A model generated the notes under the pieces. It did not search any database, was not told the DNA's origin, and saw nothing but the letters and a program-made list of their open reading frames with translations. Shown piece after piece: positions 3,653-61,428 of a stretch of 64,000 bases of DNA. Source of the stretch: Natronospira bacteriovora (lineage in GTDB: Bacteria; Pseudomonadota; Gammaproteobacteria; Natronospirales; Natronospiraceae); the NCBI RefSeq assembly GCF_030848495.1, contig NZ_JAVDDT010000005.1:62001-126000 (forward strand), in the 5' to 3' direction. Position numbers and translations under genes: made by a program. How positions within the stretch are numbered: position 1 is the first letter of the stretch; every line of letters starts with the position of its first letter.

Positions 3653-3836
<184 letters not shown>

Positions 3837-30168: not shown

Positions 30169-30390
<222 letters not shown>

Positions 30391-30399
30391 AATTGACAC

Positions 30400-41341: not shown

Positions 41342-41372
41342 CCCCCCCACACGCTTAATCCAGCACTGCCCT

Positions 41373-41484
<112 letters not shown>

Positions 41485-42011: not shown

Positions 42012-42206
42012 TCGTTGTCGTAATCGTTGTCGTTGTCGTAATCGGCTTTTCAAGCCTTGATGAAACCCGATTACGATTACGACTACGATTACGAGAAAAC
42101 CGAGGCTGCGGGAATGTTGCCTTTTAGCTCATTGCTCGTCGCTCGAAGCTCGTTGCTGCTATCTAAAAGCCGATTACGATTACGACAACGACAACGACAA
42201 CGAACC
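42012..42206. repeat. Hexamer-armed hairpin repeat, composite copy E
   Basis: A left arm of GTTGTC/GTAATC units (to ~42046), a loop, and a GATTAC/GACTAC right arm (42067-42095). A CTCGTCGCTCGAAGCTCG-containing spacer like that of copy B follows, then a further GATTAC, GACAAC arm ending at 42206. It stops only ~26 bp before the epmC start, so its last arm is probably in the epmC 5' untranslated region. Confidence 0.88.
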
Positions 42207-56885: not shown

Positions 56886-58145
56886 ATGTCTCACCGTGAT
56901 CGCCTGCTTGGTCTTCTGCAATCCCACGGCCCGCTTTCCTCGGCGGCCGTTCAGCGTGAACTGGGCATCAGCCGCCCCACCCTGTCCCGCCTGATGCGTG
57001 ACACCGAGGGTGAGATCCTGCGCCTGGGCCAGACACGGCGGGTGCGTTATGCCGCCCCGCGCCGGATCGAAGGACTGCCCGAGGTGATTCCCGTATCCCG
57101 CGTGGACGAGGACGGACGGGCTCACGCCCATGGCCGCATTCGCCCGCTCGAACCGGGGGAATGGGCCTGGGAAGGTGAAGACGGCGAACTGCGCATCAGC
57201 ACCGGCCTGCCCCGGGAGGTCCGCGACCTGCTGGGGGACGGATTCATGCCTACCGCCACCAGTGACGATGAAGCCGCGGGACTGAAATGGCTGATCGCCT
57301 CGGGGGAAGACCTGGCGGGCAATCTGCTGGTGGGTGATGAGGCCCTGGCCCGCTTTCTGGCGCTGGCCCCGGAGACACGGGGCATGGACGAGCTGCCCGC
57401 CCTGGCACGGAAAGCCGAACAGGGCCGTTTTCAAGCGGGAAGTCTGGATGGCCACTGGCCCAAGTTCACCGCCTGGATGGAGAACCACCAGATCCTGGTG
57501 AAATTTGCCCGCCTGAACGATCACCCGGCCAACACCCGCCAGGCCGACCTGCTGGTGGCCGAATTGCTGGCCCTGGAAACACTGCGTGGCCTGGGCATTG
57601 ACGTGCCGCCGGCCCGCATCATCGATCGCGAGGGCTATCGCTTTCTGGCTCTCTCCCGTTTCGACCGGGTGGGCCGCCTCGGCCGGCGGGCCGTGATCCG
57701 CCTCGGCCAGGTGGGCGGCAAGGGCGTCGACCCGGACGACTGGCGCGCTTCCGCCACGGCCATGAAACGGGCCAAGCGTCTCGGCGATGCCGATGGCGAG
57801 CGCATTCAGCTCATGAGCCACTTCGCCGCCCTGATCGGCAACAACGATGCCGGCGGCGACAACCTCGCCTTCTTCCCCGGCGAAGACGACCGCCTCAGGC
57901 TGGCGCCGGCCTACGACATGCTGCCCATGGCCGCCGCTCCCGATGCCGAGGGAAGGCTGCCCGAGGCACTCCCACCCCTGCCCATGCCCGCCAGCGGCGA
58001 ACTGGACAACTGGCGCCGTGCCGCCACTGCCGCCGCTGATTACTGGGCACGCCTGGCCAATGAAAAGCGCCTGAGCTTCGATTTCAGGAAGCTGGCCGCG
58101 GCGCAGGGGAAGGTGATCGGGGAACGGCTTCAGCGGTTGGGGTGA
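56886..58145 (+). CDS. HipA-like kinase with N-terminal HTH (YjjJ type), solo
   Basis: A 419-aa protein. Residues 1-55 form a winged-helix DNA-binding part (LLQSHGPLSSAAVQRELGIS then RPTLSRLMRD). The rest is HipA-like: ILVKFARLNDH, YRFLALSRFDRVG, LIGNNDAGGDNLAFF (catalytic/metal loop) and LAPAYDMLPM. HipA kinases phosphorylate aminoacyl-tRNA synthetases; the YjjJ group has a fused HTH instead of a separate HipB antitoxin. No hipB or hipS gene is seen beside it. Heptamer repeats start 6 bp after the stop. Confidence 0.88.
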   Translation: MSHRDRLLGLLQSHGPLSSAAVQRELGISRPTLSRLMRDTEGEILRLGQTRRVRYAAPRRIEGLPEVIPVSRVDEDGRAHAHGRIRPLEPGEWAWEGEDGELRISTGLPREVRDLLGDGFMPTATSDDEAAGLKWLIASGEDLAGNLLVGDEALARFLALAPETRGMDELPALARKAEQGRFQAGSLDGHWPKFTAWMENHQILVKFARLNDHPANTRQADLLVAELLALETLRGLGIDVPPARIIDREGYRFLALSRFDRVGRLGRRAVIRLGQVGGKGVDPDDWRASATAMKRAKRLGDADGERIQLMSHFAALIGNNDAGGDNLAFFPGEDDRLRLAPAYDMLPMAAAPDAEGRLPEALPPLPMPASGELDNWRRAATAAADYWARLANEKRLSFDFRKLAAAQGKVIGERLQRLG

Positions 58146-58151
58146 GGGGGA

Positions 58152-58247
58152 TGAGTGCTGAGTGCTGAGTGCTGAGTGCTGAGTGCTGAGTGCTGAGTGC
58201 TGAGTGCTGAGTGCTGAGTGCTGAGTGCTGAGTGCTGAGTGCTGAGT
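58152..58247 (+). repeat. Heptamer tandem array (TGAGTGC)n, ~13.7 units
   Basis: Consecutive TGAGTGC units run with almost no variation from 58152 to 58247, beginning 6 bp after the HipA-like stop. It is the left end of a composite element whose right end (58640-58664) carries related inverted units (ACTCAGA). Such a perfect array is likely to vary in copy number between strains. Confidence 0.95.
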
Positions 58248-58664
58248 GGGGGCGGTAGAGGGTGCCGTGGTACTGGAAGTGTTACGGCTTCGAAGGTGAG
58301 GTGAAAGGCGTGAGGAGTGAGGTGAAAGGCGGGCCGCCTTTGGCGCCCAACGGCCGGCCGTCGGCCGGCCTGGTTTGCGCGCAGCGCGGAAGCCGCAATG
58401 CTTCGGGTTTTCACCTCACGCCTCACGCCTTACACCTCACATTCGGAGCCGACGAATGTGAGGTGGCACCGGCGCGGCTAACGGCTCCAGCCAAGCGCTG
58501 ATCGCGGCAGAATGCCGCTCCCACAGGCAGGGCTCCGATCAACGCCGCCTTCCGATTCACGTTTTACGATTCACGATTCACTCGAAAGGCCGATTACGAT
58601 TACGATTACGATTACGACTACGACAACGAGGGCACTGCCCACTCAGAACTCAGAACTCAGTACT
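58248..58664. repeat. Composite palindromic element, copy 1 (core and right end)
   Basis: Nested inverted blocks: GTGAGGTGAAAGGCGTGAGG (from ~58299) against TCACCTCACGCCTCACGCC (~58410), the hairpin GCCGCCTTTGGCGCCC region, GGCCGGCCGTCGGCCGGCC, a REP-like GATCGCGGCAGAATGCCGC, and then GATTCACGTTTTACGATTCA. A single hexamer arm (GATTAC, GACTAC, GACAAC; 58590-58631) and ACTCAGA units close it. It is homologous to 60430-60740. No gene is supported in this gap. Confidence 0.85.
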
Positions 58665-58667
58665 CGC

Positions 58668-60218
58668 TTAAAACCCCAAAGGAATCCCCAGCACAAAGAA
58701 GCCAACAAGCAGCGCCGTCCACACGCACAGGAACATCAGCGAGTACGGCACCATGATGATGAGCATGTCACCAAAGCCCATCTCCGGCTTGTACTTGCGC
58801 ATGAAGGCCAGGATCACGCCGGCGTAGGTCATCATCGGCGTGATGATGTTGGTGGAGGAATCGGCCACGCGATAGGCGGCGGCGACAAGATCGGGGGTCA
58901 TGTCGCTGTTCACGAAATACAGCATGGGAATGAAGATCGGGCCCAGCAGCATCCACTTGGAAGTCAGGCCACCGACGAAGATGTTGATGATGGCAGTGGT
59001 GAAGATGAAGCCGATGATCAACAGGATGGGGAACTGCTGTACCCCCAGGGCCAGCAGACCCTGGGAACCCAGATAGGTGATCCAGGCACCCAGGCCGCTG
59101 TAGGTCAGCACGCCGAGGAAGTTGTAGCAGAAGAAGGTCAGCACCAGGATGTAACCCAGTGTGTTCATCTGCTTGACCATGGCATGGACCACGTCCCAGG
59201 TGCGCTTGAAGTTGCCTGAAGCCACACCGAAGAACACGCCCACGATGGCGAAGAAGAAGGAAATCAGCAGGATGATGTTGTTGAGAAAGGGCAACTGGGT
59301 GTTGCCGGCCTCATCGGTGTAGGGCGCCAGCGGGCCCAGTGAAAGCCCGACAATCACCAGGGCCGCCACCAGCACGCCCAGCAGGGAGGCACGCAGGCCA
59401 CGCTTCTCGGCGTCCGTCACCTGGAACTCGTCGAAGTTGATTTCCTCCGGCACCACCCAGCTTTGTTTCTCCAGGCGCGGCTTGACCCAGCGATGGGTCA
59501 CCCAGGCGCCCACACCGGCCAGCACGAAGGTGGACACGGCAATGAAGTAGTAATGCATGGTGGCCGGGCGCAGGGTATCGCCGGCGGCATTCTCGAAGGG
59601 CACGCCCTGGGACTCGGCGAAGACCTGGGCGTTCATGCCGATGATCACATCCACCGGTGTCCCCGGAATCAGATTGGCACTGAAACCGGCCGAGACCCCG
59701 GCGAAGGCGGCCGCCATACCGATCAGTGGATTCTGTCCGATGCCGGCATACAGCAGGCCGGCCAAGGGTATCAGTACGAGATACCCGGCATCGGTAGCCA
59801 CCGAACTGGTGATGCCAAGGAAGATCAACAGCAGGGGCAGCCACTTGACCGGCAGGTGCAGGCCGATGCGCTTGATCAGCGCCGCAAACAGGCCGGAATG
59901 CTCGGCAATACCAATGGCCAGCATGACCACCAGAATCACCCCCAGCACCCCATTGCCGAAGGCCAGCCAGTTCTCCACCAGGGCATTGTCGAACAGCCAA
60001 CGCACATGCTCGGCTTCATGCATGGCCTTGATCGAATAGGTCACCGGCTCGCCACCGGCTCCCATGGACTCGAATTCATGCCCGCCCATGAGCATGGCCA
60101 GCAGAATGGACGCCGGCAGCAGCACCATGAAGATGATGACCGGATCGGGGATCTTGCGCCCCACCCGCTCAACCCAACTGCCAAAGGCCTGCCCTCGGCT
60201 GTGCGCCGTTTCACTCAT
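58668..60218 (-). CDS. AbgT-family transporter
   Basis: A 516-aa polytopic protein. The start VERVGRKIPDPVIIFMVLLP, the two hairpin-type motifs FLGITSSVATDAGYLVLIPL and GFSANLIPGTPVDVIIGMNA, and YRVADSSTNIITPMMTYAGV are characteristic of AbgT/MtrF. Family members take up p-aminobenzoyl-glutamate or export sulfonamides and similar compounds by proton coupling. It is flanked on both sides by composite repeats, and its TAA stop meets the right end of element copy 1. Confidence 0.93.
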   Translation of the reverse strand: MSETAHSRGQAFGSWVERVGRKIPDPVIIFMVLLPASILLAMLMGGHEFESMGAGGEPVTYSIKAMHEAEHVRWLFDNALVENWLAFGNGVLGVILVVMLAIGIAEHSGLFAALIKRIGLHLPVKWLPLLLIFLGITSSVATDAGYLVLIPLAGLLYAGIGQNPLIGMAAAFAGVSAGFSANLIPGTPVDVIIGMNAQVFAESQGVPFENAAGDTLRPATMHYYFIAVSTFVLAGVGAWVTHRWVKPRLEKQSWVVPEEINFDEFQVTDAEKRGLRASLLGVLVAALVIVGLSLGPLAPYTDEAGNTQLPFLNNIILLISFFFAIVGVFFGVASGNFKRTWDVVHAMVKQMNTLGYILVLTFFCYNFLGVLTYSGLGAWITYLGSQGLLALGVQQFPILLIIGFIFTTAIINIFVGGLTSKWMLLGPIFIPMLYFVNSDMTPDLVAAAYRVADSSTNIITPMMTYAGVILAFMRKYKPEMGFGDMLIIMVPYSLMFLCVWTALLVGFFVLGIPLGF

Positions 60219-60286
60219 GGTCCTGCTCCGGAGATAAGGGAAATCAGCGGGGGATCATAGACCAGGGTGGGGATGGGTGCCAATTT

Positions 60287-60828
60287 AAAGTGCTGAGTGT
60301 TGAGTGCTGAGTGCTGAGTGGGTGCGGGTCGGAGGGGGTGGGGGCTAATCGAAGGGGCGGGGCTTTCGGTTGGCACCTCGTGAATCGTGATTTGTAAAAC
60401 GTGAATCGGAGGGCGGCGTTAGAAGATGCCGGGGTAATGGGAGTGTTGCGGCTTCGAAGGTGAGGTGTGAGGCGTGAGGGGAAAGGCGGGGCGCCTTTGG
60501 CGCCCAACGGCCGGCTGTCGGCCGGCCTGGTTCGCGCAAAGCCTGGAAGCCGTGAGGCTTCGGGTTTTCACCTCACACCTCACACCTCACTCCTCACTTT
60601 CGGAGCCGGCGAATGGGCGGTGGCACCGGCGCGGCTAACGACTCCGAACAACGCTGATCGAGGCTAAAGCCTCTCCCACAGGCACGCCTCCGATCAACGC
60701 CGCCTTCCGATTCACGTTTTACGTTTCACGATTCACGGAACGCCACTCGCAGCCCCGACCCTCCAAGAACCGCCGGCCCCTCCGACCCGCACCCACTCAG
60801 CACTCAGCACTCAGCACTCAGCACTAAT
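60287..60828. repeat. Composite palindromic element, copy 2
   Basis: The left end has TGAGTGC/TGAGTGT units (60294-60320) followed by GGGTGCGGGTCGGAGGGG. The right end is the mirror image: CCCCTCCGACCCGCACCCAC then four ACTCAGC units (60778-60825). Inside, 60379-60420 (GTGAATCG type) mirrors 60696-60737, and the GTGAGGTGTGAGG block near 60459 mirrors TCACACCTCACACCTCAC near 60570. A hairpin GGGGCGCC-TTT-GGCGCCC is at the middle. It ends 3 bp before the lipoprotein stop. No gene is supported in this 614-bp gap. Confidence 0.88.
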
Positions 60829-60831
60829 AAA

Positions 60832-61428
60832 TCATTCCCCCAACCACTCCGGCAATTTCACCACCAGGGCGCGCACACTCTCCTCGAACGCCTGGTTCGC
60901 CGCGGCCACGCCGCCGGCCGGATTCGCGCTGTCGGCGGACTGACGGATATCCTGACGCACATGCCCCAGGCTCTGGCCGGTTCTGGCGTCCAGCAGACGG
61001 TAGCGCAGAGACAGACGCACATGGCTGCCGTTGTCGTCGAAGTGCTGTTCCAGGCGAATCAGGTCGGTCTGCAGACGGTAGGGTTTGTGCAGGGGGCTGC
61101 CCGGGGCGGCCACATCCGCGAAGACACCGCTGTCGGCCAGGGCTTCGGTGAGGGCGGCGCCGAGCAGTTCAGCCGGCTCGGCCGCCCAGCGATTGCGGGC
61201 AAAGTAGCGCAGTTCACTGCCGGCTTCACGATAGCGCATGTCGCGTCCGCCATGGCCCGGGTAGGCCCGGGGTGACAGCACCAGCAGGCCGGTGGCGAGG
61301 GGCTCGGATGGCACATCCAGTTCGCCCTGCCATTCCAGCAGGTGAACCGAGGCCGGCGGCTGACGGTCCGGGCCAATGCTGCAGGCCGTCAGGAACAGGA
61401 TCAGAAACAGGGGAAGCAGTCGCAACAT
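60832..61428 (-). CDS. ABC-type transport auxiliary lipoprotein
   Basis: A 198-aa lipoprotein (LILFLTACS lipobox). YRLQTDLIRLEQHFDDNG and VRLSLRYRLLDARTGQSLGH, with an ALTEALADSGVF helix before them, fit the PqiC-like/ABC-type transport auxiliary family. These outer-membrane-facing lipoproteins work with MCE-domain transport systems. It is the last gene of the Mla/Mce-type operon (20 bp after the MCE gene) and ends at a composite repeat. Confidence 0.85.
   Translation of the reverse strand: MLRLLPLFLILFLTACSIGPDRQPPASVHLLEWQGELDVPSEPLATGLLVLSPRAYPGHGGRDMRYREAGSELRYFARNRWAAEPAELLGAALTEALADSGVFADVAAPGSPLHKPYRLQTDLIRLEQHFDDNGSHVRLSLRYRLLDARTGQSLGHVRQDIRQSADSANPAGGVAAANQAFEESVRALVVKLPEWLGE

Follow-up and report, generated by a model that had tools for sequence, protein, structure and literature searches.

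Layered non-coding elements with inverted heptamer-array ends around abgT of Natronospira bacteriovora, and their probable place in a widespread insertion-element family

In the genome of Natronospira bacteriovora (Gammaproteobacteria, assembly GCF_030848495.1), two non-coding elements of about 0.5 kb lie on either side of a gene for an AbgT-family transporter (abgT) in a 64,000-nt stretch of contig NZ_JAVDDT010000005.1 (positions 62,001 to 126,000), which is called the window hereafter and supplies the coordinates below. Element 1 (58152-58665) and element 2 (60289-60825) are layered like onions, with short tandem-repeat arrays recurring as inverted pairs. We consider it likely that they belong, as multi-layer non-coding members, to a widespread family of insertion elements that nest and flip and that end in inverted arrays of short tandem repeats (usually of 7 bp); some relatives carry a gene of the PF05635 family. 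Array-bounded elements of this kind have moved in relatives, and nesting as the source of the layers is well supported. The window elements themselves would have moved by the same process, and such non-coding elements presumably do so in trans. A first-pass annotation had proposed a non-coding family in which several short-period repeats each serve as inverted arms, and dispersed copies were indeed found. Beyond that proposal, the present analysis identifies the repeat pairs as element boundaries, recognizes relatives carrying PF05635, finds the same boundary repeats across phyla and documents insertion in relatives.

Insertion of array-bounded units in relatives

Insertion is visible in an operon on Nostoc plasmids. 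The empty form of one site (X) reads TTC-TAG-GTT-ATG (loci L288 and L299), and in L292 and L300 it is filled by a 423-nt unit of array, gene and array, with TTCTA at both ends in L300. The empty form of a second site (Y) reads GGTA-ATG (L292, L296, L297 and L301), and L288 carries there a 511-nt unit, whose array differs from that at site X and whose ends are TAATG and TTATG. Filled and empty sites are otherwise near-identical, and the junctions coincide with stop and start positions. Moreover, the PF05635 gene at site X is split in L297 by a non-coding element that bears the gene's own GTCAGGA-type array, the gene being intact in L292 and L300 (GAGCAG-ATAAAG), and another PF05635 gene is interrupted in L298 by a non-coding element sharing a GGGAAAG-type unit. 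Thus, non-coding array-bounded elements enter array-bounded elements, which is the process needed for onions.

A spacer can also be overwritten. Between metK and ahcY, six genomes of the source organism's order have an S-adenosylhomocysteine riboswitch (RF01057), and four others examined (L229, L231, L234 and L236) have instead one of two gene/array pairs. These replacements are array-bounded PF05635 elements, the right array of which encodes a new N-terminus of AhcY.

The same structures could in principle arise without mobility, if slippage at gene ends yields the arrays and hairpin-templated replication (template switching) copies them across, so that palindromes grow in place. Template switching is able to perfect quasi-palindromes, and many of the arrays start at stop codons. 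In many bacteria, long simple repeats are most often heptamers, and slippage has been put forward as their source, as reviewed in PMC4679880. This explanation accounts neither for the exact 423- and 511-nt insertions at near-identical Nostoc sites nor for one unit occurring in many phyla, nor for a PF05635 gene between the arrays and the link between unit and protein lineage, described below, that holds across families, and we regard it as very unlikely. Slippage or template switching may still add or trim units and even out the arms.

The PF05635 gene between the arrays

At two foreign TGAGTGC loci (L164 and L174), the arrays enclose a PF05635 open reading frame (ORF) (23S_rRNA_IVP, 'four helix bundle protein'), which in the L164 copy contains an in-frame stop that was skipped for the domain search. 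In the same L164 (Dehalococcoidia), the right part of the array-bounded element is present as a tandem duplicate with a second GCACTCA array at its end (L164:4463-5103), as if the arrays had recombined. The source genome (3.0 Mb in 15 contigs; element counts refer to searches and 27 fetched stretches, and part of the array calls were made by eye) has four PF05635 loci. At one locus the bounding arrays are of TGAGTTC/TGAGTGC, at another of AGTGAAC/AGTTCCC, and a third has a GAGGACT array on its one flank and arrays of GTGAGGN type on its other flank; the PF05635 gene at C4:249407 is bounded by the hexamer TTGTCG/CGACAA, which is related to the hexamer array (D) of element 1. It follows that two array types of the onions, A (TGAGTGC) and D, also enclose PF05635 genes in the source genome. 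Type B (GTGAGGN) does so in order-mates (L218 and L219).

Among the relatives and a sample of Pseudomonadota, almost all PF05635 genes inspected have inverted arrays of period 7 (rarely 6 or 8) on both sides, each with its own unit. Arrays of period 6-8 were found on both flanks of 85% of 34 PF05635 genes and of 13% of 600 control ORFs, a conservative contrast since the controls were drawn from array-rich loci. All eight PF05635 genes on named cyanobacterial plasmids lie between arrays, which are inverted in seven. Several of the plasmid-borne genes sit within operons of ribonucleotide reductase subunits or cas genes: such an element lies between ribonucleotide reductase subunit genes in L289, and others occur in CRISPR-cas operons (cas10/cmr3, cas6/cas4) of L290, L291 and L293. 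Similarity of array units is correlated with protein identity (Mantel r 0.52 overall and 0.33 between taxonomic families, both p 0.0002), and PF05635 is present in 6 of 8 relatives with GTGAGGN arrays versus 2 of 30 without them (Fisher p 0.0003). A search of phage records for PF05635 returned none at E 1e-5.

The single gene that related elements, among them four in the source genome, carry between their arrays encodes a PF05635 four-helix-bundle protein, which is related to proteins of 23S rRNA intervening sequences (IVS) and weakly to Avd, a retroelement protein to which one four-helix-bundle protein shows similarity under the cut-off (NF033474, E 0.009). This similarity might point to a retroelement, in which hairpin RNA is reverse transcribed with an Avd-like partner and the heptamers come from slippage of the reverse transcriptase. 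We rejected this hypothesis, which is hardly credible, because a domain search found no RVT_1 in the source genome; RVT_1 is also found in 7 of 24 genomes with a PF05635 protein versus 14 of 24 without one.

In the mechanism that we favor, each layer (TGAGTGC, GTGAATC, GTGAGGN and the hexamer CGATTA/CGACAA) would be the end pair of one element type, inserting at stop/start junctions as the sites of least harm, and an onion would result from insertion of elements into one another and later flips between inverted arrays. The four-helix-bundle protein would recognize its own array and aid insertion, and the host would supply nuclease and repair; we propose recognition as its role because unit and protein covary and the gene has a near-constant position between the arrays. 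It would in this way drive the movement. Resident paired palindromes may then promote local inversion of the genes that they flank (abgT and coaD), element transcripts would fold into very stable hairpins at the ends of genes, and polymerase slippage probably fixes array length. No reverse transcriptase is required in this mechanism.

Several facts weigh against this interpretation. Target duplications are short and variable, and none is evident in L297. The window pair shows no insertion polymorphism in the genomes compared, where congeners G001-G003 have no arrays by abgT, but their neighbor genes differ too. At least one PF05635 gene (L274) has no clear arrays, the two arrays on plasmid L293 are direct instead of inverted, and we know of no nuclease or transposase motif in the four-helix-bundle protein. 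Genomes G081 and G189 have TGAGTGC arrays and no PF05635 gene. The stricter idea that PF05635 is required in each array-bearing genome was rejected on account of these two genomes.

Layers of the window elements and their relatives

With regard to the source genome, the core of element 2 has 89 matching pieces at about 35 places, so that the search suggested in the first-pass annotation revealed many further copies, and the cores of the two elements are homologous. An 18-mer of the TGAGTGC array has 275 matches (reversed control, 0), and several contigs terminate within elements. A token scan of the 27 stretches gave the layer order from outside to inside as array A (TGAGTGC), array C (GTGAATC), an arm of type E1 or of a repetitive extragenic palindromic (REP) sequence plus E2, array B (GTGAGGN) and core K, followed by the mirror image, with a spacer S and hexamer D as optional layers between A and C. 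Left and right arms are chosen independently of each other, and core K occurs in both orientations (E1-core-E2 at least five times, E2-core-E1 at least four times). Modules also occur singly: a REPIN (a hairpin-forming REP doublet) stands directly within A arrays at C3:366189 and within B arrays at C8:150194, an onion at C6:9256 has neither B arrays nor core K, and short hairpins bounded by hexamers were seen in the scan. Core K was found in none of 38 relatives, and a DNA-level core search of a plasmid collection gave 0 matches.

The REP sequences raise the alternative of an ordinary mosaic of REPs (bacterial interspersed mosaic elements, BIMEs), in which a REP-associated tyrosine transposase (RAYT) mobilizes the REPs and the heptamers are incidental spacers. 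REP-like stems (TGTGGGAGCGGC) lie inside the E2 arms, dispersed REPINs of 69 bp occur, and the source genome has one RAYT-type gene (Y1_Tnp, C5:201536), in a region (C5:201357-202971, L049) where several 69-bp REPINs of E2-arm type flank it. However, the boundaries of elements 1 and 2 are heptamer arrays, and the REPs are neither at the ends nor alternating; none of core K, arm E1 and arrays A-D is a REP, and other phyla have array-bounded insertions without REPs. The identical REPIN found alone, within A arrays or within B arrays argues that REPs are passengers, and a REP mosaic as the whole explanation is quite unlikely.

The end arrays are found much more widely than the core. GTGAGGN arrays are present in 8 of the 38 relatives, mostly as an inverted pair between two genes, and TGAGTGC triplets in only 4 of the 274 genomes sampled from the class, which belong to unrelated families. 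Among the matches listed for a TGAGTGC 27-mer are named genomes of Cyanobacteria, Chloroflexi, Chlorobi, Acidobacteria, Planctomycetes, Nitrospirae, Bipolaricaulota and several proteobacterial classes. Where arrays on opposite strands are neighbors within 800 bp, TGAGTGC is on the left and GCACTCA on the right without exception (13:0 in the source genome and 16:0 elsewhere). The content between foreign TGAGTGC pairs is variable, and frequently includes more heptamers or inverted repeats. In Calothrix PCC 7716 (L124 and L156), TGAGTGC arrays enclose heptamers (AGTTAGG/CTTCTAA) together with an inverted repeat of GTCATTCTGAGCGCAGCGAAGAATCT type; this layering is onion-like, and the inner parts differ.

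A further explanation is that the elements have a selected function as bidirectional 3'-end hairpins (terminators or mRNA protectors), with arrays giving three-frame stops on the strand leaving the gene (7 mod 3 = 1). Both elements have very stable predicted folds (RNA fold of -374.9 kcal/mol and z -21 for element 2; -272.4 kcal/mol and z -9.8 for element 1, in which symmetry is lower). Moreover, for 33 of 42 arrays the stop of a same-strand ORF is at most 60 nt away; this distance is partly circular, since an ORF entering a TGA array must end there, and we do not use it as main evidence. Beside PF05635 genes, a stop triplet occurs in 20 of 26 left arrays versus 9 of 26 right arrays, and the purine bias of the left arrays is weak (18/26). 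Three-frame stops have been reported for TAACTGA repeats (PMC4679880). On the other hand, certain arrays such as GTGCTGC have no stop triplet, and the spacers holding elements are element-free in relatives; a selected function as the main explanation is rather unlikely, and strong hairpins at gene ends may affect mRNA secondarily. An Rfam search of the elements gave sub-threshold eukaryotic microRNA models only, which are chance matches to a long hairpin.

Both window elements contain no PF05635 ORF and are non-coding. Element 1 lies between the stop codons of a HipA_C-domain gene (56886-58145, + strand) and the AbgT gene (58668-60218, - strand, PF03806); its left array begins 7 nt past the former stop, and 2 nt separate its right array from the latter. 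Element 2 is located in the spacer that runs from the AbgT start to the stop codon of a lipoprotein gene with an ABC_trans_aux domain (60832-61428, - strand), which is 6 nt from its right array. The two elements have three collinear blocks in common (75 nt at 83%, 183 nt at 88% and 71 nt at 93%). The 20-mer TGAGTGCTGAGTGCTGAGTG (up to 3 mismatches) has 19 matches in the window, every one inside the two elements, and none in any of 100 dinucleotide-shuffled versions of the window. The first-pass annotation had described TGAGTGC units at the left ends and inverted ACTCAG units at the right ends of two elements flanking AbgT, with which the tandem-repeat calls agree. It had also claimed equal internal blocks in equal order; this holds for the three shared blocks, but in element 1 neither a left GTGAATC array nor the inverted GGTCGGAGGGG spacer is present, and there is an additional hexamer run.

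In element 1, left-hand parts are on the + strand: outer array A (58152-58248, TGAGTGC x13.9, 100% match), arm E1 (GGCGGTAGAGGGTGCCG..GTGTTACGGCTTCGAA, 58253-58294, an arm type of the token scan, 83% shared with element 2) and a tandem GTGAGGN-type array B (58295-58325). Core K (58329-58409, +) has four short stem-loops by direct reading and folding (GGCGCC, GGCCGGCC, CGCGC and GAAGCC). There follow on the - strand the right array B (58410-58440, CCTCACN), which is a tandem repeat and the inverted partner of the left one (43-nt arms, 91% complementary), arm E2 with REP tokens (GATCGCGGC..GCCGCTCCCACAG, 58444-58527, shared with element 2) and the tandem array C of GATTCAC type (58553-58581). 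The tandem hexamer array D (CGATTA/CGACTA, 58591-58629, +) is the additional run just mentioned, and outer array A (ACTCAGA/ACTCAGT, 58638-58665, -) is an 89% inverted partner of the left array over 28 nt, called as ACTCAGA x3.6 at 58641-58665.

Element 2 was said to be palindromic at several scales, and two nested pairs of inverted arms around its core confirm this (67 nt at 87% and 66 nt at 77%). On the + strand are outer array A (60289-60320, TGAGTGC x4.6, called as AGTGCTG x4.6), spacer arm S (GGGTGCGGGTCGGAGGGG, 60320-60337, within the 67-nt repeat), array C (GTGAATC type, 60380-60407, within the 66-nt arms), arm E1 (60411-60459, repeat family D5, found in the token scan), array B (GTGAGGN, 60460-60483, 25-nt arms 92% complementary) and core K (60484-60567, repeat family D2, four stem-loops in the fold). 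The - strand has array B (60569-60598, CACCTCA x4.1), arm E2 with REP (GATCGAGGCTAAAGCCTCTCCCACAG, 60602-60681, shared with element 1 and seen in the token scan), array C (60711-60737, TTCACGT x3.9, the inverted partner of the left C), spacer S (60777-60795, the inverted partner of the left S) and outer array A (60794-60825, CACTCAG x4.6). Elsewhere in the window, hexamer runs (TGTCGT, CGATTA, ACGACA, TCGTAA) occur at 30265-30391, 41372-41483, 42068-42203, 1754-1780 and 3657-3688; some are closely paired and inverted. These runs are probably the termini of D-type elements, and a PF05635 gene is enclosed by this type at C4:249407.

The spacers between genes in which elements of the source genome sit are short in outgroups, and single genes beside elements differ in orientation between genomes. 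The order in congener G001 is ABC-F(-), HipA_C(+), abgT(+), and that in the window is ABC-F(-), a GGDEF gene (so labeled from its translation), HipA_C(+), element 1, abgT(-), element 2; thus, compared with G001, abgT is inverted between the two elements. At the rsmD-coaD-ggt locus (gene names from reading of translations), elements flank coaD on both sides in the source genome, and the spacers are short and element-free in outgroups G003 and G006. In G001 (L284), coaD is inverted, with GTTAGGG and TGAGTGC arrays on the ggt side. Upstream of coaD in G002 (L285:2052-2595), a different nested palindrome of CACGGAG/CGCAGAG units and two REP kinds occupies the spacer that carries an onion in the source genome.

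Relation to known systems

To our knowledge, heptamer repeats of spacers and the S23/IVP four-helix-bundle family have each been without explanation for decades, and no link between PF05635 and tandem repeats was found in the open-access literature. Joining them, as ends and gene, in a single insertion element assigns each a role that can be tested, accounts for identical heptamers in unrelated phyla, and provides a route for overwriting of spacers, with one riboswitch lost, and for orientation flips of single genes. A broader proposal, to which we give somewhat less than an even chance, is that a new class exists in many phyla, with lineage-specific heptamer arrays as inverted ends and one four-helix-bundle protein that recognizes the heptamer and mobilizes coding and non-coding copies; cyanobacterial short tandemly repeated repetitive (STRR) sequences and the TAACTGA and GGGNATC repeats would then be ends or remains of such elements.

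The nearest known kind of element is the 23S rRNA IVS (PF05635, TIGR02436), which likewise has a small four-helix-bundle ORF between inverted repeats with a long stem. IVS with an S23/IVP ORF, for example that of Coxiella burnetii, have been proposed to be selfish or mobile, and an origin as remnants of mobile elements has been suggested (PMC4990558). They differ in that IVS are located in rRNA helices and have a unique stem, whereas the present elements have tandem-heptamer ends at gene-gene junctions, those of the window lying between protein genes and not in 23S rRNA, and have lineage-variable units and non-coding nested derivatives.

Intergenic heptanucleotide repeats, namely STRR, TAACTGA of Beggiatoaceae and Cyanobacteria (PMC4679880) and GGGNATC of Xanthomonas and Nostoc (PMC4692102), resemble the arrays in their 7-bp units, intergenic and cross-phylum distribution and frequent position by stop codons. 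In the passages of these two reports considered here, direct heptamer arrays are read as regulatory sites or G-quadruplex (G4) formers, and fixed-polarity inverted pairing, a gene between the arrays and units of insertion do not feature. Head-to-tail 7-bp units are present in both window elements, but as inverted pairs and as only part of the element.

REP, REPIN and BIME sequences with RAYT are likewise palindromic, extragenic, mosaic and of high copy number, and REP-like stems lie within the E2 arms; unlike them, the present elements have boundaries, a core and an order that are not of REP type, and concentric layers instead of alternating REPs. Finally, miniature inverted-repeat transposable elements (MITEs) share with them short non-coding bodies, inverted ends, nested insertion and, in some cases, short junction repeats. 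Presence or absence at orthologous sites is seen in the Nostoc relatives and for the coaD spacers of the source genome versus outgroups. No transposase with heptamer-array ends was found among the data examined. In contrast to MITEs, the present elements end in tandem arrays of variable copy number, and their coding relatives carry a four-helix-bundle gene and no recognizable transposase. If the four-helix-bundle protein proved to be the mobilizing factor, these elements would deserve a class of their own.

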